Program-made: the position numbers and the translations under genes
Virus record (IMG/VR): IMGVR_UViG_3300027852_000031
Coordinates: 102,380 to 166,379 of that record
Length of the DNA: 64,000 nucleotides
Reading direction: 5' to 3' (one strand)
Source: a virus
In this document: one piece after another, positions 10,016 to 48,091 of the stretch
How the letters are laid out: each line of letters starts with the position of its first letter
Position numbering within the stretch: the first letter of the stretch is position 1
Notes under the pieces: model-generated
Told to the model about the DNA's origin: nothing
What the model saw: the letters and a program-made list of their open reading frames with translations, nothing else
Database searches by the model: none

Positions 10016-12718
10016 CTAACCCATCATACTTGATTGTGTCACCATTGAAAATGTTTGCCCTTCGGCCAATTTGCCTATTTCTAGTTCATTTACAATGTTT
10101 ATATATTCGCCACTCTCCATGCCAGGGCCATATCTAGTATCTGTTACCACCAATTTTTTGGTACCATTAGATGGTGGGTCTTCATTCAATTCGGTTTGTG
10201 TTTTCTTCTTTAGAATCGTAAAATTAGAACATAACCAAACTATTCTATCTGATCCAGAAACTACTTCTGCACCTTCTCTCTCAACACCGTCACGATTAAG
10301 TTGAACAGTAGCTAAAACTGGCAGTTTGTATTTAACTGCAAAATTATGTAGTGCTGTTATCAAAAAGCCAAGCAATTGATATTCCTGAACGTTTCCCTTC
10401 AAACCACCATCGTCCATTAGTTTTAAGTAATCATATATTATCAAACATGGTTTGGCACATCCACTGTCCGTAAAACCGACAGTTTTCGATAACCATCTTC
10501 TGGCAATGGACATTATTGCTTGAGGAGTTAAGCCAGCCACAGAAAAATGATCGATATCTAATTTCTTAATATTCGCTTGTGACTCCCATAGCGCATCAGA
10601 TTCATGTTGATTTTTTACGAACTGTCCAGTCTCTACGTGATTTAATTCAACACCCGATACAAGAGATGCTAGTCGGTGCAACTGCGTATCGCTCGTTAGT
10701 TCTGTGTCTAAATACAAAACTGGTATACCATTTTCTGCCATATTTTTTGCTACATTGATACAGAAAAAGCTGTTATGACTTACCATTCCATTCGTAATGA
10801 AACTGTGTCCATCTGGTATATAAAAATCCGATGTCCACTCCTTGTCTGATAATAGTGAATGTATCGGATCAAACAATAGATGCGGATCTATAATTGTTTT
10901 AATCTCCTGATATTCTGGCAAATAGTCATATATTGACAATTGATTTAATAGTTTTTGAACTACATCTCTTCTAGCTTTCCTGGTCCCTCTAATCCAGCGG
11001 TTAACGTTATCTCGCATATTGACTCTTCGTCCTGGCAAAAAAAAGCCTCTGTGTTTTTGGATTGCCCTTTTGAGTGCTAACAGCGGCACCTTTAGGTTTG
11101 GTATCACATCATTTTTGGTGGAAGACGGTTTTTCGCAAAATGAATTAAGTAATTTTTGCTTCCTTTCGATACCAAATCCTATCAGATCGCGGAAAATAAT
11201 TGCTGATTCTACGTTTTGTATTGCAATCTCCCAATACACATTGGGTTTTGTGTGTCCGGGTGGGACTATATGTCTTATTCTGGTTTTTGACAATATTCCT
11301 AAATTCAACAACATTGCCTTTAGTTGAATAGCTAGTTTTTGTGAATTTGTAGTAGCTGTTACTCCTCTTTTTTCTACACAACCATCAGCATCAAAATATC
11401 CACGTAAAGCCCGACAAACAATTTCTTCTTTACATGTTCTAATAGTCGTAGGAAAAATTTTGCGATTATTTTCATCATAAAATCCCAATGATAATATTTT
11501 TTTTGCAATTTTCACCCTATTGCATCTTATATGGAATTTGTTTTCTGTTCCTATGTCACCGCCACAACGACCAATAAATGTTCTAAATTGCTCTCGGCAG
11601 TGTCCATTAATTGAAGCTAGTTCGACGATTGTATCGTTTATACAACCATCGCCAACCAACAATCCAATAACATATGCGTCATTTATGTCGATAGTAGCAC
11701 TACCCCAGTATCTATCCCCTCTTCTACACACTAAATAATCTTTTGACTTCAAATCTTCTGTGTTCTTCCATTTGATTTTTCCATCGGTATCTAGAATTTG
11801 CACAGGGTGGTTTGGGGTTGCCGACAAGGTATTCCCATATTTGGTTTGTATCTTAATTACATCAACAAAACCATTATTCCACCAATACTCGGGTTGTTTT
11901 TCATCGCCATTTGAATTCAGTAATCTCAAATCCGAACTACATAATTGTGGTAATGCTTGTTGGAAATTTGTGGATTTAGCGCAATACATTTCGTATGGCA
12001 TTAAAATACCAAGGTTAGTCAATACTACCGTACTGAAGGAACCGTGACATTTTCCAATTTTCGGCCTAGCGCCAATAACGTTCACAGTAGCAGGACGTAA
12101 GCCACCACCTATTGCTATATCCCACTTAGTAAAACCAGTGGGAAGACCTACAATGTCTTGCGGTGTTGTGGCTAACGATTGCATGACATGCTGGAATGAA
12201 TCTCCTAGTGAAACCACACCTGCGGTTTGGGATACGGTGTTCCCCGTAAATTCGAATATGGGTTCTTCGATGGCACTAATAATTTCATCTACACCTTCTG
12301 CTCCAGTTATCGATGTTAAGGTTTTTTGTATTTTAGTTACAGCAAGATATCCCTGTCTAGCTAATGATAATTTGTATATTGCTATAACCATAGCCTGAAC
12401 GTTATCCCGAGACAGACCAGTTTCATCTATTATTGATGTCAAATACTCAGTGTGTTTTCCTCCAGCGGCAAAAGAGGCATATCCCAAAATCCTGGCAGTA
12501 GCCTGTATGCTAGGTAAATCAAATGTTTTTGTATCTTCTTTGTGAACCATGTGTGAAAAAATTGCAAACAATTCCTGATTATATTTCCAGTATAAATCTT
12601 TAACATTGATGATATCTTCTACTTCGAAGAAACAATCAGAACCATACGTAGCTATGCCCGCCATGACGGCTCGTTCCATGCCAGAGTCTTGTAGTATAGC
12701 ATTTTGTTTATTGCGCAT
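10016..12718 (-). CDS. dnaB: Replicative DNA helicase DnaB with an intein in the P-loop
   Basis: A 900-residue precursor. Residues 1-223 hold the DnaB N-terminal helical domain and the start of the RecA-fold ATPase up to GARPKIGK. The host protein resumes at residue 650 with SFFCINVAK, so the Walker A motif GARPKIGKS is rebuilt only after splicing out residues 224-649. The mature helicase would be 474 residues, normal for the family. Downstream are LIIYDYLKLM (Walker B region) and VLATVQLNRD, then a C-terminal GPG-containing part. It starts one base from the zinc-ribbon gene upstream and runs into the primase gene. Confidence 0.93.
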   Translation of the reverse strand: MRNKQNAILQDSGMERAVMAGIATYGSDCFFEVEDIINVKDLYWKYNQELFAIFSHMVHKEDTKTFDLPSIQATARILGYASFAAGGKHTEYLTSIIDETGLSRDNVQAMVIAIYKLSLARQGYLAVTKIQKTLTSITGAEGVDEIISAIEEPIFEFTGNTVSQTAGVVSLGDSFQHVMQSLATTPQDIVGLPTGFTKWDIAIGGGLRPATVNVIGARPKIGKCHGSFSTVVLTNLGILMPYEMYCAKSTNFQQALPQLCSSDLRLLNSNGDEKQPEYWWNNGFVDVIKIQTKYGNTLSATPNHPVQILDTDGKIKWKNTEDLKSKDYLVCRRGDRYWGSATIDINDAYVIGLLVGDGCINDTIVELASINGHCREQFRTFIGRCGGDIGTENKFHIRCNRVKIAKKILSLGFYDENNRKIFPTTIRTCKEEIVCRALRGYFDADGCVEKRGVTATTNSQKLAIQLKAMLLNLGILSKTRIRHIVPPGHTKPNVYWEIAIQNVESAIIFRDLIGFGIERKQKLLNSFCEKPSSTKNDVIPNLKVPLLALKRAIQKHRGFFLPGRRVNMRDNVNRWIRGTRKARRDVVQKLLNQLSIYDYLPEYQEIKTIIDPHLLFDPIHSLLSDKEWTSDFYIPDGHSFITNGMVSHNSFFCINVAKNMAENGIPVLYLDTELTSDTQLHRLASLVSGVELNHVETGQFVKNQHESDALWESQANIKKLDIDHFSVAGLTPQAIMSIARRWLSKTVGFTDSGCAKPCLIIYDYLKLMDDGGLKGNVQEYQLLGFLITALHNFAVKYKLPVLATVQLNRDGVEREGAEVVSGSDRIVWLCSNFTILKKKTQTELNEDPPSNGTKKLVVTDTRYGPGMESGEYINIVNELEIGKLAEGQTFSMVTQSSMMG
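10772..12049 (-). other. DnaB intein (426 residues, LAGLIDADG type)
   Basis: Boundaries follow splice chemistry: the first residue is Cys (TGT at 12047-12049) after IGK, the last is Asn preceded by His (VSHN), and the next host residue is Ser. Block B is visible as TPNHPVQIL. Two LAGLIDADG-like helices appear, VIGLLVGDGCI and LRGYFDADGCV, so a homing endonuclease domain is present and looks intact. Its sequence is closely related to the RecA intein in this window. Confidence 0.92.
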
Positions 12719-14585: not shown

Positions 14586-16865
14586 TTAGTTCTCCTGATC
14601 CTGCGGTAATACTATAGTTCGTATCTCAGATTCTAGTTGCATCAATTTATCTATATTATTTCTTAAGAAATTAGACAATTTAGCCAACCCTTGGAATTTT
14701 GGTGTCTCATCGTTCTCTGCGAACATTGGTACGGAATACCATGCACCAGCTTTCTGGACTAAACCCAAATTTTCGGCTGTATTGACTATGTCGCGAACAT
14801 TGTCTATTCCTATGCCATATTTCAAAGGGATAGTGCACGGTAGCAATGGCCTGCCCATTGCCGATGACTGAACCATTATGTGCATATCGTGTCCATCTGG
14901 CGCGTTGGTCTCTGGGTTTTTATCCCACTGTTGCGTCCATGTAACTTTGAGCCAGACAGAACAAGCATACTGAACAGCGACACCACCCTTCTCTATATAT
15001 TTTGGCCCACGAGGTTCCCTGTTGCTAATCATCTGAGAAATAAATATTAGAATTACATTGTTAGTATCAACGACCTGTTGTGCTCGACGGAAAAAGGCTG
15101 ACAAAAGTTTTGCTGGTCCTGCCATATCCTTATTTGACCCGATTAATTCTTCTTGCTCTGTGATAGTAGATAATGCCGCTATGCTATCTATAACCACTAC
15201 AGCTTTTTTTTGTGTTTTGGCTATCCGTTCAATAATGTTGAGATAATCTTCTGCAGATAGCGGCTTATCTATTTGGTGTGGTACTACCTGTAGTTTATCG
15301 GCATCTAATCCACCAATGGTACCAAGCAATTCTGGGGTACACCGACGTTCTATGTTAATATAAAACGTTGGTCTATTTTGTTTTTGGGCATTTCGTAATA
15401 GCTCTAGACATAATGTTGTATTGTGATTTACTATCCCGTTTGCTAAAAACGATTTGCTGATAGGAACACTTAAGTCTGCTGTATGCACAATACCCGTATC
15501 CAAGGCTGTAACTGTATCAAAAAACAAATGTGGATCAATTAACGATTCAATTGTCTGATATTCTTTCGTGTGTCGATAATCCAAAAATTGATTAAGCATC
15601 TTCCGAACCACATCCCTGCGGGCTTGACGTTTTCCTGATTTCCATCTATTGATTGTCGTCCTCAAGTTGTTCATTGTTCTTGAAAGAAAATATCCACGAT
15701 CTCTGATAATTACTGTTTGTAGAGCAGTTATTGGTTCGTTCAGATACGGAACTGTATCGCATTTGGTAGATGATTTTCTACGACAAAGCGATTCTAGTGC
15801 TTTTCTTTTTCTTGGAATGCGGAAATTTATATAATCTTTAAATCTTTTTATTGATTCAGTATTATGTATATTTATTTCCCAATATTCACGACTTTCTGTG
15901 TGTCCCGGAGGAACAATATGTCTAACCCTGGTATTTGACAATATTCCTAAATTCATCAAAATGGTTTTTATTTGTATGGCGAGTATCCTAGAATTAGTGG
16001 TCGCACTTATTCCACTTTTCCCAATTGTTCCATCGGCATCAAAATAACCAGACAACATATTACATATGTTATTAATATTACATGTACGGATAAAAGCTGG
16101 TACTTGTTTGTATTTATTGATATAAAACTTCTCTCTTGTCAGTATTTTGCCGTATTTTACAGAATTGAAATGATGGTCCTTGTCTGCGTATGTTAAAACT
16201 TTACCATTTCTTTTAACTACAAAATCAACAAAAGCTTCATAACAAATAGAATCTTTTGTCGACAATTGTATTCTTTGATTGGCTATATGGCCGTCACCTA
16301 TTAAAAGGCCGTAGACATAGGCGTCGTTGTTGTCAATTGACCTATTTCCCCATATATTATCCCCTCTACGACACACTAAAGTATCACCTATCTCGACATC
16401 TTTACCATTTTTCCATCTCTGGATACCGTCATGATCTAGTACCATCAACGGATGGTTGTGCGTTACACTAATTTCTGAACCAAATTTTGTATCAATTTTA
16501 ATAACATTATCTATTCCATTATCATACCAAGATGATACTCGCTGCAATTTGCCGGTATTAGACACAACTCTAATTTTTGATAATGTTCTTAATTCTTTGA
16601 GATTCAATAGTCCATGATTTGTTACCACAAAAGTATTCTTAGAATCAACGCATTTCCCAGATTTTGGTTTGCCTGTTATCAAACATATTGTTCCGTCTGG
16701 TATTCCACCACTCAGTGCTATGTCCAAAGATAATGGGGTGTTCAGTATGTTACGTGACCGTGGTGGTAACGCCCTTGAGGCTGGTGCTATGATTCCTTCT
16801 CCGTGCACTCGCTCCAGAAATGCATCTAATGATTCTGCATTTACATCTGGTCGTTTTCTAGCCAT
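14586..16865 (-). CDS. recA: RecA-like recombinase with an intein in the P-loop
   Basis: A RecA-family ATPase. Before the intein: ILNTPLSLDIALSGGIP and TGKPKSGK. After it: TTLCLELLRNAQ, so Walker A becomes GKPKSGKT on splicing. Walker B is VVVIDSIAAL. The DNA-binding loop region shows NREPRGPKYIEKGGVAVQ, a RecA/UvsX hallmark. The ATG at 16865 (MARKRPDVN) is preferred; a frame start at 16925 would run far into the upstream gene. The mature protein would be about 348 residues, normal for RecA. Confidence 0.9.
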   Translation of the reverse strand: MARKRPDVNAESLDAFLERVHGEGIIAPASRALPPRSRNILNTPLSLDIALSGGIPDGTICLITGKPKSGKCVDSKNTFVVTNHGLLNLKELRTLSKIRVVSNTGKLQRVSSWYDNGIDNVIKIDTKFGSEISVTHNHPLMVLDHDGIQRWKNGKDVEIGDTLVCRRGDNIWGNRSIDNNDAYVYGLLIGDGHIANQRIQLSTKDSICYEAFVDFVVKRNGKVLTYADKDHHFNSVKYGKILTREKFYINKYKQVPAFIRTCNINNICNMLSGYFDADGTIGKSGISATTNSRILAIQIKTILMNLGILSNTRVRHIVPPGHTESREYWEINIHNTESIKRFKDYINFRIPRKRKALESLCRRKSSTKCDTVPYLNEPITALQTVIIRDRGYFLSRTMNNLRTTINRWKSGKRQARRDVVRKMLNQFLDYRHTKEYQTIESLIDPHLFFDTVTALDTGIVHTADLSVPISKSFLANGIVNHNTTLCLELLRNAQKQNRPTFYINIERRCTPELLGTIGGLDADKLQVVPHQIDKPLSAEDYLNIIERIAKTQKKAVVVIDSIAALSTITEQEELIGSNKDMAGPAKLLSAFFRRAQQVVDTNNVILIFISQMISNREPRGPKYIEKGGVAVQYACSVWLKVTWTQQWDKNPETNAPDGHDMHIMVQSSAMGRPLLPCTIPLKYGIGIDNVRDIVNTAENLGLVQKAGAWYSVPMFAENDETPKFQGLAKLSNFLRNNIDKLMQLESEIRTIVLPQDQEN
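15420..16652 (-). other. RecA intein (411 residues, LAGLIDADG type)
   Basis: Starts with Cys (TGC at 16650-16652) after KSGK and ends with His-Asn (IVNHN) before Thr. The block B motif is THNHPLMVL. The endonuclease helices are VYGLLIGDGHI and LSGYFDADGTI. Long stretches agree with the DnaB intein, for example NLGILSxTRxRHIVPPGHT, showing common descent. It sits at the structurally equivalent P-loop position of a different protein. Confidence 0.92.
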
Positions 16866-17328
16866 TTTCCATTTCTCGTATTTTAGAGATGGTTGTCTTT
16901 TCCCCAGTATCAACAAATTTAGCATTTTCTTTAATATCTATATCTGAATTATACCGATTTACATCCATCTTGTTTCTGTCACGATTAATAATATCTAGTT
17001 GTTTAAAGGTCAATGCAATCACTCTGCTGATTGTTTTTTTAGCTGTTAACGACTTTATATTATTGTTCTTTATAACATGCACCAAAGCGGTTCTTACGAC
17101 CTGGTCATCCATATTTAATTCATTCGCTAAATTTGCAATACCTTTCGTTTCTCTTCTATATTTCGGCCCCCAATATTTGGTATCTGACCAAAACCTTGGT
17201 GCCAATTTTCTATTCACATTCAGACAAACCAATTCTATGATAAATGACCTAAAAGTAGTATATAAACCCATCGTGGTCGGTGATTCGTATGGATGTTTTT
17301 CGTCTCGCTGTTGATGCCTAATAGCCAT
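16858..17328 (-). CDS. Hypothetical basic protein
   Basis: 156 residues, rich in Lys/Arg/Asn, with a helical middle (IANLANELNMDDQVVRTALVHVIKNN) that could form a helix-turn-helix. No family was recognised with confidence. It overlaps the recA start by 8 bases, and its position directly upstream of recA suggests a replication or recombination accessory. Confidence 0.55.
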   Translation of the reverse strand: MAIRHQQRDEKHPYESPTTMGLYTTFRSFIIELVCLNVNRKLAPRFWSDTKYWGPKYRRETKGIANLANELNMDDQVVRTALVHVIKNNNIKSLTAKKTISRVIALTFKQLDIINRDRNKMDVNRYNSDIDIKENAKFVDTGEKTTISKIREMENG

Positions 17329-22314: not shown

Positions 22315-25083
22315 TTATGTGTCACATGCTCCGCTCGGACAATCATTAACAGAAGCCCCATCTGTCACTTGGTCTAAATGCTGTCTAGCTTCTTCCAATG
22401 GCACTGACATAAGTGGTGATTCTCCCTTACTGCCATCTCGATAAATAGTTATTCCTTTTAAATCACGGATACATGCCAGTATATCGTCAGACAGTTGTGT
22501 AATAGGATAATCATGCGGTATATTAATAGTTTTAGAAATAGAGTTATCTATATGTTTCTGACAAATAACTTGCATAGCTATGTGGTCTTTTGGATTTATA
22601 TCATGTGCTCCCTGGAAATGCCCTATAGACTTGTCGGCTAGAAGGAACGTTTTTAATAATGGATGTATAATTATTTCAGATTCTTTGCATCGTCTGCTCT
22701 CATCATGCATATCTTTGTGTTCGTTGAATTGTCTGCGATAAACTGGATGAAATAATGGTTCAATACCAGATGAACATCCAGAAACTATAGAAGTTGTTCC
22801 TGTCGGCGCAATAGTCAATAGTGCACAATTTCTGATACCATGCTCTTTAATCAATCTTCTATGTCGTTGGGTTAAATGCCTTTTTATAAATCCAGTTTTA
22901 ATATGTTTCTCAAAATCAATAGCTTGGAATGGACCCTTTTCGATCGCTAACGATATACTGGCATAATACGCTTGTTTTTTTACAAAATCCATAACCTTGT
23001 CAACGATATCTCTAGCGTCACTGGTGGAATACTTAAGTCCAATCTTAAGTAGCATATCATGCAAGCCCATGACGCCCAGACCAATTCTTCTGTGTTTCTG
23101 TGATGTCTCTTCTATAATTGGTAACGGGTAATGATTTTGATCAATAACATTGTCTAAGAAACGAACACCCATGGCGATAGTTTCTTCTAACAAATCCCAA
23201 TCGATTTTGTTATCAATTACATGAGTTGACAAATTGATGGCACCGAGACAACATGAACCCATATCCTCTAAAGCTTGTTCGCCACACGGATTGGTAGATG
23301 ATATTTCTCCTCCAGGGACGTAAGCCAATGAGTTTTTTTGCCTCATTAACCCAATATTCAAAATTCCTGGATCACCATTTTCCCAAGCATTTTTGATGAT
23401 GATATTCCATACTTCTTGGGCTGCTATCCTACCACGTTCTTCACCTTTCCACTTAAATATAATCTCACCATTGTTAGACAGTAGATCAAAAAATTCATCA
23501 TTTACTAAGATCGAAATATTCGCATTTGCTAATTCATTATTGTCCAATTTAGCACGAAGAAATTCTAGTAAGTCTGGATGTCTCCAGTCTAGACAATATA
23601 ACAGAGCGCTGCGACGACCTCCCCCCTCTCTCAATTCATTACATACAGCATTTACTGCTCTCATAAGACTTACAGATCCAGTAGCTTCTCCACCGGTACC
23701 CCTTATCGGAGTTCCTCTTGGTCGTATTTTGGAAAAATTAATACCGACACCACCACCAGTACCGGAAATAATGGTGACATTACGTAAGACATCGCCCCAT
23801 CCTTCTCTACTGTCATCTGCTGGTATGACAAAGCAATTTCCTGTTAAATAAAAATTGTCTATTACAAACGTATGCGTCTGTTGTTCTTCGCAACAAAAAA
23901 CTGTTTCATACCGATTAGTTTTTTCTACACCAACAACCTTGATACTACTTTTCTTCACATTGTCTTTTATTGATTTCGATACAATATTTTCCCTGTGCTT
24001 ATTTTTGATAATCAATTTATTATCAAATCCACTATTGCCAATAATTGACCCCTTACATATTGTTAGTTTGTATAAACTCGCTGCGCTTCCGTTAAACGGA
24101 TTTTCCGTTCGAACCAGTGTTACGGCAGTGGTGGCTATCCCGGCCAATTTACATATGTTCCTTGTATCACATAGAACATTTCTATTCTTATTGTGGATCA
24201 TACAGTGGCCTCGTTTATCGACATGCCCGTCAGATCCTATCAAGCCAGCCACAAACCCTCTTAAGTATGATCGGGATTTTGTTGTAGTTGGTAATTTTTT
24301 CCATTCTGGTGGATGCTTAGATGTAATTCTACCTCCAGTTGATGGCCAATCTCTAGCATCATTAAAAAAGTCATCCACTAGATGACGACTATCTCCAAAT
24401 TGCTGTAGCCGAGAATATTTTCCGTTCATATAGAGTGAACCATCGCCGAAAACCAACCCATGTCTAACACCACATACATATTCTTCATCATCGTAGTCGA
24501 ATCGAAGTGATGGTTCAATCAATATTCTTTTGTTCAATAATTCTTTTGTTTTTACCTTTTTTATTGTTTTTCCATTTTTGTAAACTGGCCATTCATGTTC
24601 CAACGTCGCAAAAAGTATATCACCATTCTCAAGTGTAATACGGTATAAGTATTGTTCGCCAGCGTTAAACCATGTAGCAGAACGAAAAACTCCGTCAATA
24701 GATAATACATCTGCTGTGGTGCCACCCAAAAGCTTTATAGGAATGGCACCATAATATTTTGTTTGTACCAGCGTTTCTCCCGACAAACAATTCAGCATTT
24801 GCCCCCTTGGTCGTCCTGCACCTCTCCAAATACGACCACCAGGAGAAAACCTATTGGTACCCAATATATTCATAAATCTATTGAAGTATTCATCTCTTTT
24901 TACACCCATCTCTGCATCAGCTATCGCCCTAGCAACTCTTTCGCACGCCTGAGCGAATGTCTCATCTGGATGAATTGCGTATCGATCTTTAAATATTTTT
25001 AACGCAAACCCTTCTGGTTCGTATCTGTCCAACCCCACTAAGAATCTCCCCCTTCGATATTTATACTTTCTCTGGTTGTACAA
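22315..25083 (-). CDS. nrdJ: Class II (B12-dependent) ribonucleotide reductase with an intein
   Basis: A 922-residue precursor. Host parts show FSPGGRIWRGAGRPRGQMLN (1-98) and, after the intein, CFVIPADD, TGGGVGINFS, REGGGRRSALL, STNPCGEQAL (active-site Cys), APTGTTSIVSGCSSGIEPLF and a C-terminal CPSGAC thiol pair. There is no ATP-cone, and no small subunit gene in the window, which fits NrdJ. The mature enzyme would be about 604 residues. The intein sits just before the conserved Cys of LNCFV, so catalysis depends on splicing. Its 3' partner genes (HD hydrolase upstream, ThyX, dCMP deaminase) form a dNTP supply set. Confidence 0.9.
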   Translation of the reverse strand: MYNQRKYKYRRGRFLVGLDRYEPEGFALKIFKDRYAIHPDETFAQACERVARAIADAEMGVKRDEYFNRFMNILGTNRFSPGGRIWRGAGRPRGQMLNCLSGETLVQTKYYGAIPIKLLGGTTADVLSIDGVFRSATWFNAGEQYLYRITLENGDILFATLEHEWPVYKNGKTIKKVKTKELLNKRILIEPSLRFDYDDEEYVCGVRHGLVFGDGSLYMNGKYSRLQQFGDSRHLVDDFFNDARDWPSTGGRITSKHPPEWKKLPTTTKSRSYLRGFVAGLIGSDGHVDKRGHCMIHNKNRNVLCDTRNICKLAGIATTAVTLVRTENPFNGSAASLYKLTICKGSIIGNSGFDNKLIIKNKHRENIVSKSIKDNVKKSSIKVVGVEKTNRYETVFCCEEQQTHTFVIDNFYLTGNCFVIPADDSREGWGDVLRNVTIISGTGGGVGINFSKIRPRGTPIRGTGGEATGSVSLMRAVNAVCNELREGGGRRSALLYCLDWRHPDLLEFLRAKLDNNELANANISILVNDEFFDLLSNNGEIIFKWKGEERGRIAAQEVWNIIIKNAWENGDPGILNIGLMRQKNSLAYVPGGEISSTNPCGEQALEDMGSCCLGAINLSTHVIDNKIDWDLLEETIAMGVRFLDNVIDQNHYPLPIIEETSQKHRRIGLGVMGLHDMLLKIGLKYSTSDARDIVDKVMDFVKKQAYYASISLAIEKGPFQAIDFEKHIKTGFIKRHLTQRHRRLIKEHGIRNCALLTIAPTGTTSIVSGCSSGIEPLFHPVYRRQFNEHKDMHDESRRCKESEIIIHPLLKTFLLADKSIGHFQGAHDINPKDHIAMQVICQKHIDNSISKTINIPHDYPITQLSDDILACIRDLKGITIYRDGSKGESPLMSVPLEEARQHLDQVTDGASVNDCPSGACDT
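23836..24789 (-). other. NrdJ intein (318 residues, LAGLIDADG type)
   Basis: Begins at Cys (TGT at 24787-24789) with CLSGETLVQT and ends YLTGN followed by host Cys. The usual penultimate His is Gly here. Endonuclease helices GLVFGDGSL and FVAGLIGSDGHV are visible, and the C-terminal block THTFVIDNFYLTGN is clear. It is not closely related to the two P-loop inteins. Confidence 0.9.
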
Positions 25084-27925: not shown

Positions 27926-28567
27926 TTATTGGGAAACACGTTTCTCAAGCTCCGGGGTCCATATCCCATCGATCAGTCCCACCGTAATAGCTTCATCTGG
28001 CGACATCCATTTTGTTTCTTGCATCATTTTGAGCAACGTCTTTTGGTTGACCTTTAATTGTTTTGCTAAAGAAGCCACTTTCTTGTTGTAATCTACCTGC
28101 ACGTGATTCAGCATGCCTACATGCTTCTCTATAGATTGACCAGTCGATCCTATTATTATCGAATGAAGCATTATGGAAGAATTAGCAGTAGCGTACCTAC
28201 ACCCTTTTGTTCCAAACGCAGCTATTATAGCACTCATTGAGTTTGCTTGTCCACGCACAATGGTATAAATTGGACAAGAACTTAGTAACATTTGATCCAC
28301 AATAGCATATCCAGATGTTAAGCATCCACCAGGACTGTGTATGTACATATAAATTGGTTCATTCGTAAGACTAAATAGCTGTAGGTAGTTGCAGATATGT
28401 GTCGAGACAACTTCATCAATTTCTCCGACTACCATAAGCCGTCTGGTTCGGACAAGTAATTCTTCAACCATTTCATCAGAATTGAGAGACACATACGTCT
28501 CTTCTTCTTCCTTTTCACTATGGCAATTAGATAAACTATCAATTTTATTCCGTCGTGGCATTAACAT
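27926..28567 (-). CDS. clpP: ClpP-like serine protease
   Basis: About 213 residues. Motifs YIHSPGGCLTSGYAI, RGQANSMSAIIAAFGT (catalytic Ser in NSMSA) and SSIMLHSIIIG (catalytic His) are those of ClpP; the Asp would lie in the C-terminal helix. GGAG six bases before ATG 28567 sets the start, overlapping the recombinase gene by 23 bases; an ATG at 28606 would overlap more and lacks a site. It could remodel host proteolysis or act as a capsid maturation protease; no capsid genes are in view. Confidence 0.85.
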   Translation of the reverse strand: MLMPRRNKIDSLSNCHSEKEEEETYVSLNSDEMVEELLVRTRRLMVVGEIDEVVSTHICNYLQLFSLTNEPIYMYIHSPGGCLTSGYAIVDQMLLSSCPIYTIVRGQANSMSAIIAAFGTKGCRYATANSSIMLHSIIIGSTGQSIEKHVGMLNHVQVDYNKKVASLAKQLKVNQKTLLKMMQETKWMSPDEAITVGLIDGIWTPELEKRVSQ

Positions 28568-29435
28568 ATTTTGCTCCAAAAGGATGACATTGGCTATGAA
28601 TGTCACGCAGAGTATCTAATTGAACATCAAGGTATCTTTGTGTGGTAGACAATTGTTGATGACCAAGTATGGTTTGAATTAAGTCTATATCCATTCCATT
28701 ATTCATTAAGTCAGTTGCACAACTTTTTCTTAACGAATGAGAAGTTGTATGATTTACCCCCGCGCGGCGAGAATAATATGTAATCATATCACTAACCGCT
28801 CGACGCTTTAGTCGACTTCCATCTTGGCATACAAAAACAGCTTTTGTAGAAGACTGTCTATCGTATTCTATGTATTCCTGGACAGCCGAAAGGCAGGAAT
28901 GGGTAGTGGGAACAACTCGATCTCGACATCCTTTTCCATGTATTAGCAATTCTCGGCTTTTGATATTTATATCTTCCAGGTCTAACCCACAAAGTTCGGA
29001 AACTCGCAATCCACTATGGTACAGTATTAATACAATAGCGACATTACGACGAACGTTGCCGCCTCTAGGTGTCTGTGACATGTCATGGATAACAGATATA
29101 ATTCTATCAATTTCACTTTTACAAATAACATGTCCACTCCTGCTTTCTGCTCTAACAGAATCTAAATTTTTTAATGAATTAATGTTTATTTTTCCAACAG
29201 TTGCTAAATATCGGAAAAAACATCTTACCGACATATATTTCCTTCGTATGGTTGTAGATAACAATCGCTTTGTTTTAAGATGGCCAATAAAATCATCCAC
29301 CAAATCAATATCAAAACCTTTATCTTCTGTAAAATTTAGGAATTCGCCAACATCGTACATATACGCCCGCGATGTTTCTTCGCTAAGGTATAGTTCCGTT
29401 TGAATATATTGTTTAAATTCATCAATTAGTACCAT
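28545..29435 (-). CDS. Tyrosine recombinase (XerC/D-like)
   Basis: 296 residues. SAM-like N-terminal domain, then the catalytic set: Arg144 (HSGLRVSELCG), Lys168 (HGKG), His233/Arg236 (SHSLRK), His259 (LGHQ) and Tyr268 (TTQRYLD). All six are present. It may act as an integrase or, as in many large virulent phages, resolve genome multimers. No att site was identified. Confidence 0.85.
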   Translation of the reverse strand: MVLIDEFKQYIQTELYLSEETSRAYMYDVGEFLNFTEDKGFDIDLVDDFIGHLKTKRLLSTTIRRKYMSVRCFFRYLATVGKININSLKNLDSVRAESRSGHVICKSEIDRIISVIHDMSQTPRGGNVRRNVAIVLILYHSGLRVSELCGLDLEDINIKSRELLIHGKGCRDRVVPTTHSCLSAVQEYIEYDRQSSTKAVFVCQDGSRLKRRAVSDMITYYSRRAGVNHTTSHSLRKSCATDLMNNGMDIDLIQTILGHQQLSTTQRYLDVQLDTLRDIHSQCHPFGAKYVNATTE

Positions 29436-30588: not shown

Positions 30589-30882
30589 CTACTCCATTGC
30601 ATCCAAATATTTATCGTATTGAGTAACCTTGTTCATAAAAGAAACTAGTCGTTCATATACTTCGCAGGTAAAATTGTAGCCACCAATGAATTCATGTTGG
30701 ATAAAACCAAATGCTTCTCTCATAGGAATATCACTGATCATGTGGAATGGCTGTATTTGCACAAAACATTTATTCCATTTACCAGAATCATTCTTTATGT
30801 CGACTAAGAAAAATCTACTGAGATAAGGCAATTGGCGATATCTTATTCTATATTTTCCAAATTGTATTGTGGGAGGCTTCAC
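30589..30882 (-). CDS. Hypothetical protein
   Basis: 97 residues, beta-rich N-terminus (IQFGKYRIRYRQLPYLSRFFLV), no motif recognised. It overlaps the stop of the BrxL-like ATPase gene by one base, so both are probably co-translated. Confidence 0.5.
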   Translation of the reverse strand: MKPPTIQFGKYRIRYRQLPYLSRFFLVDIKNDSGKWNKCFVQIQPFHMISDIPMREAFGFIQHEFIGGYNFTCEVYERLVSFMNKVTQYDKYLDAME

Positions 30883-32345
30883 TAAATATCTCCTTTGGTT
30901 ATTTTATATGACAATTTAACACCACCAAATTCACCTGGTGAAATTATTGCCAATTGATTCAACACCCTCTGTCTTAAATCTACTGCTATATCCAAAACAG
31001 TTTTCAACTCATTCGATTTAACATTATCAACACTTCTGTGTGGAAATACCAACTTTAACAACCCAGATCCAATTCTAACAAGCGATCTCTGATCTCTTTG
31101 TCCCATTTTACCAAAGTCCACATTTTGCAATATGATATTTGCATAATTGCGATTTCTCATTCTATGCATTACTTCAGACAGATAGTCAGCCATAAATCCC
31201 AGATTTTTAGAAAGATTAGCTTCCCTAATTGGACCAATGCGCCATCCTGGGATAAATCCGTGTATTCGATCGAGGAATGCTCGGTCTTGACTAACAATTT
31301 GTGGAAGTGGTGAAAATAAGTTACGATATCTTACGGCGACCTCTTTTTTATCTCTGTCACAATCGATGTTACCCATAAAAGTAACAGAACAGTCGGAAGC
31401 AAACTCAGCCGTACCTCTACCAAATTTTCCCGAATTCATAAAATCTTTCAGCAAATCTATTAAATCACCTTGCCCAGACCACTTATTCGCACCACGACTA
31501 CTAGCAAATTCATCGAATGCAACCACATCCCTGTAACCAACCAAACCTAGTTGTCTCCTGAGTTTATCATAAAATAAAGATGCGACAGTAGTCTGTGATC
31601 CGGAAATCACAAATCCATAAGAACTCAACGACTGATAAGCGAATGTTTTTCCTGTCATAGTTGGGCCGAGTTCTATCATATTCACATTTGACTCAACAAA
31701 TGGAACCATCCTAACCATATATAGCCATTTTTCTTCTTCTGAAAGATTTGTTGAATCAAACCCGACACTATTGATCATTAAATCGAGCCATTCTTCGTCG
31801 GAAAATCTTTCTCGACGTTGAATCCATGTGTCCAAATCAATCCCAGTAATTTGCATTGGACGGAATTCTGTCACAAGGAATGGATATAGTTTTTTGCGTA
31901 TAACGTAAGATTCATCATACACGATTTTAAACACACCCCACGCACCAGTAGTTAATAGGGTTTCTCCGTATTCTGTGATAAGATCTGAATCTATCCGAAT
32001 ATACTGATTTCCCAGACAAGATACGTCAATCCAATATATATCTTTTCCCTCGTCGTACCTACCCCGTATTCTACCAACAAGAGTATACTCACCCTTTTCC
32101 CTTATTTCACTTTTTATCCATTCTTTTTTATCAGAATCTAGAAAATGATTATCTAATAGTCTGCCAATACGTTCAAGACCATGGATTGAATTATTGGAAT
32201 CAACCATTTCTGCTATTAAATAATCAATTACAAAAGAGGGCAATTTTTTCCATTGATCGTTCCATTTAGATATATTTTTGTCTATTATTGTCCCCTTCTC
32301 GGGAAACACCAAAGAAACCTTTTGTGTCATTGTGGTTTCAACCAT
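30882..32345 (-). CDS. BrxL-like AAA+ ATPase lacking the Lon protease domain
   Basis: 487 residues. The central part matches the BREX protein BrxL: NMIELGPTMTGKTFAYQSLS (Walker A, 227-234), SGSQTTVASLFYDK, GLVGYRDVVAFDEFA (Walker B, 274-279), LKDFMNSGKFGRG and VTFMGNID. The N-terminal 200 residues have the BrxL-like preceding domain. BrxL is normally around 680 residues with a C-terminal Lon-like protease; here the protein ends about 200 residues earlier and no Ser-Lys protease segment is seen. No other BREX gene (PglX, PglZ, BrxC) is in the window. ATG 32345 has GGAG seven bases upstream. Confidence 0.75.
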   Translation of the reverse strand: MVETTMTQKVSLVFPEKGTIIDKNISKWNDQWKKLPSFVIDYLIAEMVDSNNSIHGLERIGRLLDNHFLDSDKKEWIKSEIREKGEYTLVGRIRGRYDEGKDIYWIDVSCLGNQYIRIDSDLITEYGETLLTTGAWGVFKIVYDESYVIRKKLYPFLVTEFRPMQITGIDLDTWIQRRERFSDEEWLDLMINSVGFDSTNLSEEEKWLYMVRMVPFVESNVNMIELGPTMTGKTFAYQSLSSYGFVISGSQTTVASLFYDKLRRQLGLVGYRDVVAFDEFASSRGANKWSGQGDLIDLLKDFMNSGKFGRGTAEFASDCSVTFMGNIDCDRDKKEVAVRYRNLFSPLPQIVSQDRAFLDRIHGFIPGWRIGPIREANLSKNLGFMADYLSEVMHRMRNRNYANIILQNVDFGKMGQRDQRSLVRIGSGLLKLVFPHRSVDNVKSNELKTVLDIAVDLRQRVLNQLAIISPGEFGGVKLSYKITKGDI

Positions 32346-44642: not shown

Positions 44643-44882
44643 TTACTCACCCATTAAGTTACGAAGATTAGCTGCGACTTGTGATGCACGATTTTGTGCA
44701 CTCGATATAATTGTTTTTCGAATATTGAGAGCATCAATATGATCTTCAATGGCATCTGTTTCGCTAGTACAATGTTCCACGGCATCTTCCAGATCATCTA
44801 CTAATTCTTGGAATCGATCCAAAACATCATATACCAATTCTGTTCCAACCAACTTTTTTTGATTCTTTTTGTTCCCAAACAT
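44643..44882 (-). CDS. Small coiled-coil protein
   Basis: 79 residues, heptad-rich and acidic (RFQELVDDLEDAVEHCTSETDAIEDHIDALNIRKTI). It directly follows the E1-like gene (15-base gap) and may share its transcript. Function unknown. Confidence 0.5.
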   Translation of the reverse strand: MFGNKKNQKKLVGTELVYDVLDRFQELVDDLEDAVEHCTSETDAIEDHIDALNIRKTIISSAQNRASQVAANLRNLMGE

Positions 44883-44897
44883 TTCAATACCCTCTCT

Positions 44898-45557
44898 TTA
44901 GTTTTTGAATCCCATTTCATTAGTCAACAAATTAACATCAATCTCGTTATCCAGATCGTGTCCACGTAACCATTTGGTAAACTGGGCAACCATTAGCCCA
45001 GCCGCGATACTGGCACAATAGATAGTAGTTTTAGCTGTACAAGACCCATTATATGCCTCAGTTTCACTAAATAAAGTACTTTCATAGTGTGTACGAGATG
45101 CATCGTTATGTGATGTGAAAATTCGCATATATTCTGCACTCATCCTGCCATCTACAAATAGGTTTGCCCTATTTTTCACAGTATTAAATATATTGCGTCT
45201 AGTCTCAATACCGTCTACACAGCAGAATAAAACACCCCCAGTAAACTGAGTCGTATTGAATTTCCTACATGTAGTGGTAATGTCTACTGATGAATTTATA
45301 GATTTACATATTCGTTCTACAGCATCGACTTTCGACAATCCCATATCTTGCTCTAAGAACCCCTGTGGTGCCAGATTTTCCACTTCCACCCTGTCGAAAT
45401 CGATTAATTTCAGACGTGGCGTACCGATTGCCGCCAATTGAATGGTGACTTGTCTTCCTATTGCACCAGTCCCGACAATCGTTGCACTAATGGTCGCCAG
45501 CTTCTCTGGTGGAATTATGTCTCTTTGTCTGATATCTCTGTCTATTAGTTGGTTCAT
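44898..45557 (-). CDS. E1-like ubiquitin-activating enzyme (ThiF/MoeB family)
   Basis: 219 residues from ATG 45557, immediately after the upstream stop, with GAGGAAGG as ribosome-binding site. Adenylation motifs: ATIVGTGAIGRQV (nucleotide loop), LIDFDRVEVENLAPQGF (acidic residue and N-L-x-x-Q segment) and, towards the C-terminus, YNGSCTAKTTIYCASIAAGLMV, which places a cysteine where E1-like enzymes have their thioester Cys. Expected reaction: ATP-dependent activation of the C-terminus of a small beta-grasp modifier, here presumably the protein encoded at 47.8-48.0 kb. Confidence 0.85.
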   Translation of the reverse strand: MNQLIDRDIRQRDIIPPEKLATISATIVGTGAIGRQVTIQLAAIGTPRLKLIDFDRVEVENLAPQGFLEQDMGLSKVDAVERICKSINSSVDITTTCRKFNTTQFTGGVLFCCVDGIETRRNIFNTVKNRANLFVDGRMSAEYMRIFTSHNDASRTHYESTLFSETEAYNGSCTAKTTIYCASIAAGLMVAQFTKWLRGHDLDNEIDVNLLTNEMGFKN

Positions 45558-45558
45558 A

Positions 45559-46452
45559 TTAGCCTTCTTCCTCTGTTGGAACACATGCGGAATCTACTGT
45601 CGCATGACGATCTGCCCATTGTGGCATGAGTTCGGTTATACGTTTGTTTGGCGGGGGAGTACTCCTTTTCATTTCATTTCCGTTTTCAGTAAACCAATGT
45701 CCCGTATCCGGTTCATACAGATACCACTGTCCATTATCCTCGTCCCACCAGTAGACATCATTTTCTTCATCGCAGTAACAATCCATATTGTCTATTTCAT
45801 CACATACGTCTGGGATATCTACGTCTTCGACTATTGACCTAAACTCCCTATCCATGTCGAATGCTTCGTGCCCTCTGAACCCAACGTGCCGGAATTCTTC
45901 TATGCCGCTTACATGGAATTTTTCTTCAGATACGTTAGATTGATATTCTGCATTCCAAGCAGGTATGTCGGAACTAGCGAACGGCAGATTCCAGTCGATA
46001 CATACGTTCAATCTTTTTTCCATACCGGGGCCGACGTTGCTTTTCAGCCTGCAATAAGTCTTACCCCCGTCTGCTACTATCAGCATTATAGCCCAATTTG
46101 GGTGTGAGAATGCGTTTGTAAAATTTTCCTCATCCGTCCAAGATGGTTCCGGACTATCACCTGGATGAGTATGTGCTAGAATATTGGTTGCTTGCCATGG
46201 CGCCAACCCATCATCTGTCATTTTTTCTACGTATTCTACACAGCTTTCCGCATCTAAATCGAATGTTCCAGTAGTGCATTTTTGCTTTACTAAACAGAAA
46301 TCGGTTATCAGTAGTGGGTCTTCTGTTGCTGTAACACAATACCCAGCTACTTCTGTCGCTCCGATATCTCTCATATAGATTAATTTTGCCCATGCGTATG
46401 GTGTGAATCGTATTGTATCAGAAAATGTTGTTTTTGGTTTCATGAAATCCAT
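45559..46452 (-). CDS. JAMM/JAB metalloprotease (deubiquitinase-like)
   Basis: 297 residues. The JAMM motif is complete: Glu34 (GATEVAGYC), then His94-Thr-His96, seven residues, Ser104, two residues, Asp107 (HTHPGDSPEPSWTD). Known family role: zinc-dependent cleavage of isopeptide bonds or of modifier C-termini. A C-terminal extension rich in Trp, Asp and Tyr follows (VYWWDEDNGQWYLYEPDTGHW). It sits between the E2-like and E1-like genes. Confidence 0.88.
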   Translation of the reverse strand: MDFMKPKTTFSDTIRFTPYAWAKLIYMRDIGATEVAGYCVTATEDPLLITDFCLVKQKCTTGTFDLDAESCVEYVEKMTDDGLAPWQATNILAHTHPGDSPEPSWTDEENFTNAFSHPNWAIMLIVADGGKTYCRLKSNVGPGMEKRLNVCIDWNLPFASSDIPAWNAEYQSNVSEEKFHVSGIEEFRHVGFRGHEAFDMDREFRSIVEDVDIPDVCDEIDNMDCYCDEENDVYWWDEDNGQWYLYEPDTGHWFTENGNEMKRSTPPPNKRITELMPQWADRHATVDSACVPTEEEG

Positions 46453-46453
46453 A

Positions 46454-47716
46454 TCATAGTTCCTTCGTTTTCTCGACAGTTTCTAGCAAACATTTATGTT
46501 TTTTGTCGCAGGGAGGGCAACTGTATGTTCCACAATGATTACATTCACAAGCACAATCTACACAGACACGTTCCCCGCAATCACTGCACGTCTCACATAG
46601 ACAATCTTTACAAACAGCTTCTCCGCAATATTTACACATTTCTTTACAATCGCTGCAAATACTATAGCCGCAACATTCACACTGCGTATCACAATTTATG
46701 CATCTATCAGAACCACAGCTGTTACATGTAGATAAGCATTCGCTGCATATTTGATCTGAGCAATCTTCGCATATTAAAGTGCACTCATTACACATAGGTG
46801 CATGACAACAGTTGCATGATTGAATACAATTATCGCAGTACCATTGTTCACAAGTATCGCACATTGCGCCATCGGCACAATTAGCGCATTGGATTGAGTC
46901 ACAACCGTCACATGACACCTGGTCGTACTCGTCTTTCCATTCTTCGCAGCAAACACAATAGAAGCTGCCTTCACGATCGGGGCTATACCAACTACTCAAG
47001 GGTGTGTGTGGTGACTCTGGATTATATGTCCTTAATATTTTTTCTACTAGGTCGAAATAATCTTCCAATCTTCCCTGATCTATAGCTAGACTTAGTGAGT
47101 ACTGACCATTTCCTTCACACAATTCTTCATCAGCGACGTGGGGATGGAAAAACCCATTATATGACTCTTCACCGGTTACAGCTATGATGCGCAAACTATT
47201 AATTGGTTCGATTATATCTATACTGATCCGGAAGTTGCCCAAATTTACATTTTCTTCGTCATCATCCAATATTATACTTTTGACGAGAATAGATAGCCGT
47301 CCATCTTTATACTTTATATCATCCCATCTTTTGGATATAACATCGATTTCTTCTATTAGTTGCCGCAACGACACCACAGTCGGCCTACTTGCGTTTGTTA
47401 GGTGGGCTATTACTAATTTTATATGGTCTATGGTTGTTGTGCACATATCTGGTATCATCTCTTGCGCAACACTATTATATACGGATTCGCTCAATATACC
47501 TTCGTGGTTCGTTTTATCCCACGGAGATCTTTGTATCCTTCTTGTTACCCCATAAAATAACTTATCAGTCCACACTCGTAATTGATTTATTTTATCATAA
47601 GCGGTATCTATAGCCCTATAAACTCTTTTGTTGTCGTATGACGAGCGGCTATCTAGCCTTGTGAGCATCCATGTTCTAAATTTATGGGCGACTCTGATCT
47701 TTATTTTTTTATTCAT
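46454..47716 (-). CDS. E2-like domain fused to a tandem CxxC zinc array
   Basis: 420 residues. Residues about 130-240 show a beta-meander (RLSILVKSIIL, NLGNFRISIDIIE), then NGFFHPHVADEELCEG with HPHV at 191-194 and Cys200, and LEDYFDLVEKILRTYNPESPH. This order resembles the HPN-x(n)-Cys active site and following helices of E2 (UBC/RWD-fold) enzymes, so Cys200 is a candidate thioester cysteine. From 254 to 409 about ten units of CxxC-x4-CxxC follow with a 15-17 residue period (e.g. CDGCDSIQCANC, CKYCGEAVCKDC), resembling stacked treble-clef/RING-like zinc sites. Residues 1-130 are helical and unassigned. Together this suggests an E2-E3 fusion. The E2 call is inference from pattern. Confidence 0.6.
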   Translation of the reverse strand: MNKKIKIRVAHKFRTWMLTRLDSRSSYDNKRVYRAIDTAYDKINQLRVWTDKLFYGVTRRIQRSPWDKTNHEGILSESVYNSVAQEMIPDMCTTTIDHIKLVIAHLTNASRPTVVSLRQLIEEIDVISKRWDDIKYKDGRLSILVKSIILDDDEENVNLGNFRISIDIIEPINSLRIIAVTGEESYNGFFHPHVADEELCEGNGQYSLSLAIDQGRLEDYFDLVEKILRTYNPESPHTPLSSWYSPDREGSFYCVCCEEWKDEYDQVSCDGCDSIQCANCADGAMCDTCEQWYCDNCIQSCNCCHAPMCNECTLICEDCSDQICSECLSTCNSCGSDRCINCDTQCECCGYSICSDCKEMCKYCGEAVCKDCLCETCSDCGERVCVDCACECNHCGTYSCPPCDKKHKCLLETVEKTKEL

Positions 47717-47747
47717 ATTGTAACTCTGATGTCATAGAGGATTTTAT

Positions 47748-47776
47748 GGGTGGGGGGTGGTTGCCACCCCCCACCC
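47748..47776. other. Perfect 13-bp GC hairpin between modifier and enzyme genes
   Basis: GGGTGGGGGGTGG (47748-47760) pairs perfectly with 47764-47776 around a TTG loop. It lies in the 78-base gap after the modifier gene stop and before the E2-like gene. On the minus strand it is not followed by a T-run, so it is more likely an attenuator or mRNA-stabilising structure than a full terminator. Confidence 0.8.
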
Positions 47777-47794
47777 AATACAGCTATCAGAATA

Positions 47795-48028
47795 TTACGC
47801 ACCTTCGATCTTCTGAGGCGCAAGGGTTACCTTGTCTCCATCTCTCAGGACATAGTCTGTCTCAGCAACAAAACTCTCTCCATCAGATCGAACACGGATA
47901 GTGAAATCATCGAGATCACGATCCGGCAAGTAAAAATCCAAAAACGTACCAAGAGTAATACCAGGATTCACCGTCAATTGCTGCACACCACCGTCGCCAT
48001 CGTTCGTTACCAAAGTGACGTTCAACAT
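47795..48028 (-). CDS. Ubiquitin/ThiS-like beta-grasp protein
   Basis: 77 residues from ATG 48028, set by AGGAG eight bases upstream. The pattern is that of ThiS/MoaD/ubiquitin-like beta-grasp proteins: LNVTLVTN first strand, GVQQLTVNPGITLGTFLDFYL (strand and helix), then FTIRVRSDGESFVAETDYVLRDGDKVTLAPQKIEGA. YVLRDGDKVTLAP equals the L-x-x-G-D-x-V-x-x-x-P end of ThiS. The protein ends in Glu-Gly-Ala rather than Gly-Gly, so removal of the last Ala (for example by the JAMM protease) may be needed for activation. Confidence 0.75.
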   Translation of the reverse strand: MLNVTLVTNDGDGGVQQLTVNPGITLGTFLDFYLPDRDLDDFTIRVRSDGESFVAETDYVLRDGDKVTLAPQKIEGA

Positions 48029-48048: not shown

Positions 48049-48091
48049 GGGCTTTTAGCCCTACAATAAAATTCCAACTACGAGTTGGAAT
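48049..48091 (-). terminator. Terminator and hairpin upstream of the modifier gene
   Basis: A perfect 9-bp stem ATTCCAACT/AGTTGGAAT (48071-48079 and 48083-48091) is followed on the minus strand by TTTTATT, a good intrinsic terminator for the gene at 48099-48311. A second small stem GGGCT/AGCCC (48049-48061) lies between it and the ribosome-binding site of the modifier gene and may belong to its leader. Thus the ubiquitin-like operon appears to start here, although no clear promoter was found. Confidence 0.75.

Follow-up and report, generated by a model that had tools for sequence, protein, structure and literature searches.

Results

A four-gene operon in a tailed phage

The window analyzed here is a 64,000-nucleotide stretch of IMG/VR virus record IMGVR_UViG_3300027852_000031 (166,379 bp). 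Between positions 44898 and 48028 it contains four consecutive minus-strand genes that are predicted to encode a ubiquitin-like (Ubl) modifier, a protein resembling ubiquitin-conjugating (E2) enzymes with a C-terminal zinc array, a JAMM/JAB peptidase, and a stand-alone ThiF-type adenylating enzyme resembling ubiquitin-activating (E1) enzymes (Table 1). A preliminary description of this DNA proposed that these genes form a nearly contiguous Ubl conjugation operon in a phage-like genome. Position and strand were as described, and the genes are nearly contiguous in this genome (gaps of 1 bp between the E2 and JAMM genes, 1 bp between JAMM and E1, and 78 bp between Ubl and E2), but not in several relatives, in which the spacing differs and extra open reading frames (ORFs) intervene. 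The phage context also held up. Outside the window, the record encodes proteins with portal and tape-measure family matches and a large protein with weaker terminase large-subunit matches, and because of these matches we assign it to the tailed phages. No sheath family was found among the proteins of the record. The neighbours of the operon in the window are genes for DNA replication and nucleotide metabolism, not a structural block.

Table 1. Features of the operon and its immediate surroundings (positions in the window).
Feature	Position	Strand	Basis or remark
Ubl modifier gene (77 aa)	47795-48028	minus	beta-grasp by AlphaFold2 and Foldseek
E2-like protein gene with C-terminal zinc array (420 aa)	46454-47716	minus	
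JAMM/JAB peptidase gene (297 aa)	45559-46452	minus	Prok-JAB match and invariant catalytic residues
E1-like ThiF adenylating enzyme gene (219 aa), stand-alone	44898-45557	minus	Pfam ThiF
79-aa ORF directly 3' of the E1 gene	44643-44882	minus	similar downstream ORF in L001 and L003
Gly76-Ala77, predicted JAMM cleavage point	47798-47803	minus	alignment of tails
UBC-like core (aa 112-250) with H191-P192-H193...C200 motif	46967-47383	minus	AlphaFold2, conservation, hhalign
Cys-rich array (aa 254-409), about 20 CxxC knuckles	46490-46957	minus	unit number differs between relatives
JAMM motif H94-x-H96-x7-S104-x2-D107	46132-46173	minus	sequence
Cys173, predicted thioester cysteine, context SCTAK	45039-45041	minus	invariant in 16 E1s (new, crAss-like, Flavobacterium and jumbo lineages)
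Terminator/attenuator-like hairpin (14 bp, GC-rich) in the gap separating the Ubl and E2 genes	47747-47777	minus	best -32 kcal/mol
Weak terminator-like hairpin 5' of Ubl	48071-48091	minus	

At least 11 further IMG/VR contigs share the window's gene order of Ubl, E2/zinc, JAMM and E1 (loci with this order are L001/L002, L003, L009, L012, L014, L015, L016, L017, L018 and L022/L023). Because the order recurs in these contigs, the cluster is more than a chance arrangement. Signature residues of all four proteins are invariant across the recurrences. A pattern scan of genome contigs found no bacterial relative by that pattern.

The E1 and JAMM enzymes

The E1 and JAMM proteins are clearly recognizable. 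The 219-aa protein matches Pfam ThiF (E=4.7e-24) and, in profile searches of the PDB, UBA5, UBA7, MoeB, ThiF and BubCD (6.5e-8 for BubCD). Its GxGxxG motif and residues D53/D55, N61, Q65, K76, D115 and C173 are invariant within the lineage, and the same residues are retained in crAss-like, Flavobacterium and jumbo-phage relatives, except G34 (Ser in L007). The candidate catalytic cysteine of the preliminary description corresponds to Cys173, which is present in all 16 E1s compared; elsewhere its context is CSYKQT (crAss) or CTMKQT (Flavobacterium).

The 297-aa protein matches Prok-JAB (E=2.2e-4 over residues 91-128). As had been claimed, its E-HxH-x7-S-x2-D site is intact, and E34, H94, H96, S104 and D107 are invariant in 12 sequences.

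The modifier and its predicted maturation

An AlphaFold2 model of the Ubl, made with 12 sequences, has a predicted local distance difference test (pLDDT) score of 87.8 and the order strand-strand-helix-strand-strand-strand. The top Foldseek matches in the PDB are Caldiarchaeum ubiquitin and SUMO (probability 1.00, best E 2e-4), so the earlier assignment of this 77-residue protein to the beta-grasp fold stands.

The protein ends in ...APQKIEG76-A77. Gly76 is invariant in 12 of 12 aligned Ubl sequences and the residues after it vary, the tails among relatives being A, P, E, S, AV, AN, ELN, AVVL and SDTVTIQAMH. In L015, an 80-aa domain is fused after the Ubl glycine; L003 has a similar sequence as a gene of its own, located between Ubl and E2. 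Since the glycine is invariant and the tail is variable and once replaced by a fused domain, the Ubl would appear to be a precursor that is trimmed by the JAMM peptidase after Gly76.

The modifier could also be expressed differently from the enzymes. A hairpin of -21 to -36 kcal/mol lies directly 3' of Ubl in 9 of 11 loci (random stretches of the window: mean -11.3 kcal/mol, sd 3.3). It is followed by a T-run in several relatives; none is present at the window's own hairpin. The preliminary description placed a terminator ahead of the operon. There is a weak hairpin at that position, but the strongest one is within the cluster, at the boundary between Ubl and the enzymes (Table 1). In addition, 10 of 11 loci have a higher GC content at third codon positions (GC3) in Ubl than in all three enzyme genes; in the window, the GC3 of Ubl exceeds that of all 23 other genes measured. 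Together, the hairpin and the high GC3 suggest that the modifier is produced in excess.

The E2-like protein and its zinc array

The 420-aa protein is likely, although not proven, to be an E2, judging from a UBC-like order of predicted structural elements, an HPx-V/I...C motif, and its context. In an AlphaFold2 model of residues 1-256 (pLDDT 81.7), two long N-terminal helices are followed by helices, four strands, Cys200, and helices; this second part has its elements in UBC order. H191, P192, H193, L199, C200 and G202 are invariant in 11 E2-like sequences. The motif in L017, FHPHVNSSGSLC, can be compared with YHPNINSNGSICL in UBE2D2 and with YHPNVFSHGGFC in a protein annotated as the E2 of a Ubl operon on a Crinalium plasmid. 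In hhalign, the core profile aligned with UBE2D2 in register on HPN...C, with a score of 21.6; the highest-scoring of 300 column permutations reached 21.2. The same residues aligned with the Crinalium E2, and 1 of 200 permutations scored higher. A Foldseek search of BFVD with the model gave one match, the unnamed protein A0A516LW79 (E=2.6e-3). The Crinalium operon itself (L059:2950-6378) encodes an E1, two Ubl-like proteins, an E2 (HPN...C) and a JAMM protein.

The long zinc array that had been noticed on this protein is present: C-terminal of Cys200, the protein has 44 Cys and 20 CxxC motifs. In L022/L023, the array is split across two frames.

Parallel sets in other phages

In the phage collection, the best E1 matches were to crAss-like, Flavobacterium and Xanthomonas/Erwinia phages. 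The search of phage genomes for the four-gene order that the preliminary description had recommended yields both the further contigs, at least 11 in number, and parallel sets. In crAss001 (gp79-gp76), DAC15 and others, a Ubl precursor gene is followed by genes for an H-x-H...C-x-G protein, a JAMM and a ThiF, and Flavobacterium phages have a parallel set of Ubl precursor, possible E2, JAMM and E1. Like the operon described here, the crAss-like cluster is in a replication module; its neighbours, where annotated, are primase and uracil-DNA glycosylase, and its own genes are annotated as ThiF, metalloprotease or hypothetical only. It differs in having no zinc array, in its long Ubl tail, and in its E1, which belongs to a separate clade. 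The crAss-like Ubl forms the N-terminal section of a longer protein (201-308 aa) and is followed by a tail of 112-213 aa; the junction is K-K/N-I-K/R-S-G|A (KQVKSG in a Flavobacterium phage). In cr106_1 (L033:2187-3390), an annotated HNH endonuclease gene lies between the Ubl and tail parts, and the Ubl ends KKIKSG-KF. The precursor is in this way naturally split at the predicted cut site.

Xanthomonas phage PhiXhv-12 and Erwinia phage Ep032 (jumbo) encode a 140-aa protein ending in ASGG, an 892-aa protein in which IHPHM...SLCLG is combined with a Cys-rich tail, and a ThiF; these can be read as a set of a Ubl ending in GG, an E2/zinc protein and an E1. In contrast to the operon in the window, no JAMM gene was noticed beside this cluster, and the motif similarity is only local.

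In the E1 tree, the new-lineage and crAss-like E1s form separate clades. We therefore rejected a single phage-wide origin of the E1, and separate recruitment by the two lineages is possible, although the bacterial rows in this tree are short and the branches long. Between lineages, hhalign gave no significant alignment for Ubl, E2 or JAMM, and this was so even for JAMMs that both match Prok-JAB, for which the comparison is uninformative.

Other genes in the window and in relatives

An AAA+ ATPase (PF00004) adjoins a DUF3150 protein (39425-42013). The ATPase is present in 12 of 12 relatives, and the corresponding gene in the L003 contig (C1:92343-93881) has two in-frame TAA stops. A ClpP-like protease (27926-28606) is present in 11 of 12, with close relatives in 10 of the 12 contigs and a distant match in an eleventh. 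We considered the ATPase (40439-42013) and ClpP as a degradation arm of the Ubl pathway and rejected this. We claim no specific link, since the relatives are one lineage and the AAA gene also occurs in phages, for example of Mycobacterium and Vibrio, that are not among the Ubl-E1 matches.

Apparent inteins are present in the DnaB-like helicase, RecA-like and ribonucleotide reductase genes (10016-12718, 14586-16925 and 22315-25083); the inserts end in HN or GN motifs, after which the host protein continues. A stand-alone BrxL-like protein (30882-32345) has both BrxL domains (E=8e-104). An IMPDH/GMP-reductase-like protein (36480-37853) has an N-terminal region that resembles a protein at 38453-39115, homing-endonuclease-associated in appearance. 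At L064:6943-10296, a terminase-like protein of 1118 aa has internal helicase- and HNH-family matches and could contain an intein or insertion.

Discussion

A probable phage-encoded tagging pathway

We think it probable that the four genes encode a complete Ubl conjugation and deconjugation pathway belonging to the phage, in agreement with the preliminary description. The gene order, its conservation, and the intact catalytic residues of the enzymes are established directly, and the Ubl fold by prediction. From these we infer the following sequence of events. The modifier would be made in excess as a short precursor and trimmed by the JAMM peptidase after Gly76. The E1 would adenylate Gly76 and then capture the modifier on Cys173, and the E2-like enzyme would accept it on Cys200 and attach it to target proteins. 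The zinc array could serve as a built-in docking arm, similar to a ubiquitin ligase (E3), that guides attachment, and the JAMM enzyme might also remove attached modifier. Proteins of replication, of transcription or of the host are more likely targets than components of the virion, because the genes sit in a replication and nucleotide module, both in the window and in crAss-like phages, and not in a structural block.

Several points weigh against this interpretation, which is built on sequence and predicted structures. The Ubl ends in a single glycine, not GG, and no separate E3 or degradative partner has been shown. The other points concern the 420-aa protein. The asparagine of HPN is replaced by His, and the UBE2D2 match spans 16 columns with a low hhalign probability (5%). 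Foldseek of the model against the PDB gave no significant match, searches with Pfam, NCBIfam, PHROGs and PADLOC gave no credible family, and nothing credible came from PDB searches with the UBC-like region (phmmer and hmmsearch). Of the E2-like domain proposed earlier, the order of elements and the active-site motif were found, but no significant Foldseek or hidden Markov model (HMM) match.

One alternative is counter-defence. The main role of the pathway could be to disrupt Ubl-based defences of the host (Bil, CBASS Cap2/Cap3 or others), either through competition for host Ubls or through their deconjugation. Host Ubl systems are known to conjugate phage or cGAS proteins (PMC10097602; Hor 2024, as cited in PMC13373217), and the match between the JAMM protein and the Cap3 model, although weak (E=1.1e-3), points the same way. 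However, a complete pathway with its own modifier exceeds what a decoy needs, and JAMM and Ubl are conserved together. We consider counter-defence unlikely as the main function; it is compatible with a tagging pathway if the tagged targets are defence proteins, and our confidence in the two overlaps accordingly.

Alternatively, the genes could specify a sulfur-carrier pathway, in which a ThiS/MoaD/CysO-like Ubl is activated by ThiF, a Mec+-like JAMM releases a product, and the pathway thiolates a nucleobase, tRNA or metabolite. Phages do modify nucleobases, the Ubl has a ThiS-like Pfam match (E=0.049), and the E1 scores highest against ThiF/MoeB models. JAMM-Ubl-ThiF sets for sulfur transfer are also known (Iyer 2006, PMC1779556). 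We regard this pathway as quite improbable: the set always includes an E2-like protein whose Cys is invariant, the E1 Cys is in a C-T/S-x-K context like that of conjugating E1s, and a non-exhaustive inspection of operon neighbours revealed no rhodanese, no ThiG/MoaE-like protein and no other acceptor enzyme. It is also quite doubtful that the 420-aa protein is a zinc scaffold or adaptor, with the E1 transferring the Ubl directly (SAMP/Urm1-like) and the JAMM reversing this; such a role would fit the lack of a significant structural or HMM match to E2, and archaeal SAMPs do conjugate without an E2 (PMC11354881), but the HPx...C motif is in register with UBE2D2 within a helix-meander-Cys-helix order, H191, P192, H193, C200 and G202 are invariant, and H-x-H...C-x-G proteins occupy the same operon position in crAss-like phages.

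If the four genes do form a tagging pathway, its implications are broad. Ubl conjugation in bacteria is known mainly as an anti-phage defence, and a complete, conserved pathway carried by phages would reverse these roles and point to covalent protein tagging as a tool of phage takeover. We are evenly divided on the wider proposal that several separate lineages of tailed phages, including crAss-like gut phages, carry their own complete Ubl tagging pathway in the replication module and, while infecting, use it to mark proteins of the host or of the phage, with the zinc-array E2 acting as a combined E2-E3 not described before. With the zinc array part of the E2 itself, such an enzyme would represent a new way of building an E2-E3 as a single protein. 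The pathway would also give coherent meaning to gp76-gp79 of crAss001 (annotated as ThiF, metalloprotease and hypotheticals), and since this phage is cultured, function is directly testable.

Comparison with known Ubl systems

We found no paper on a phage Ubl-E2-JAMM-E1 set in the open-access papers searched, which is not proof that there is none, and a 2021 survey of crAss-like phages (PMC7886860) contains no terms for such a set. The E1/E2/JAMM chemistry is shared with CBASS Cap2/Cap3 and Bub, and the phage E1 matches BubCD and the JAMM, weakly, Cap3. However, E1 and E2 activities are fused in Cap2 and, by PDB entry name, in BubCD, whereas the phage has separate E1 and E2 genes and its own dedicated Ubl, and no nucleotidyltransferase was noticed. 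Class 6D systems, which we take to be the PRTRC systems, are similar in having a stand-alone Ubl with a conserved C-terminal Gly and stand-alone E2, JAB and E1 genes in one cluster. Class 6D is the closest in gene content (Iyer 2006, PMC1779556). In contrast to class 6D, no alpha-helical partner was identified here, and the phage E2 has an upstream His and a zinc array. The Prok-E2_D domain had no match in the record, PRTRC_ThiF scored 30.2 bits against a cut-off of 144.75, and PRTRC A, B and C were without a match.

Bil (BilABCD) also combines Ubl, E2, JAMM and E1, and its peptidase, BilC, matures BilA (PMC11354881), as the phage JAMM is predicted to do with the Ubl precursor. However, BilA contains a pair of Ubl domains and BilD a pair of adenylation domains (PMC11354881), whereas the 77-aa Ubl and 219-aa E1 are single-domain proteins and the system here is phage-encoded. 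With the PADLOC Bil models, there was a weak BilD match only (6.5e-5), short of a BilA-D assignment. The tail-assembly genes of phage lambda (TAPI/TAPK) likewise pair a phage Ubl with a JAB peptidase, but they are without E1 or E2 and are in a structural module (PMC1779556). The preliminary description called the arrangement unrecognised. The operon indeed conforms to none of the known models for Bil, Bub, CBASS and PRTRC, but the arrangement is not unique: it is lineage-wide and has parallels in other phages.

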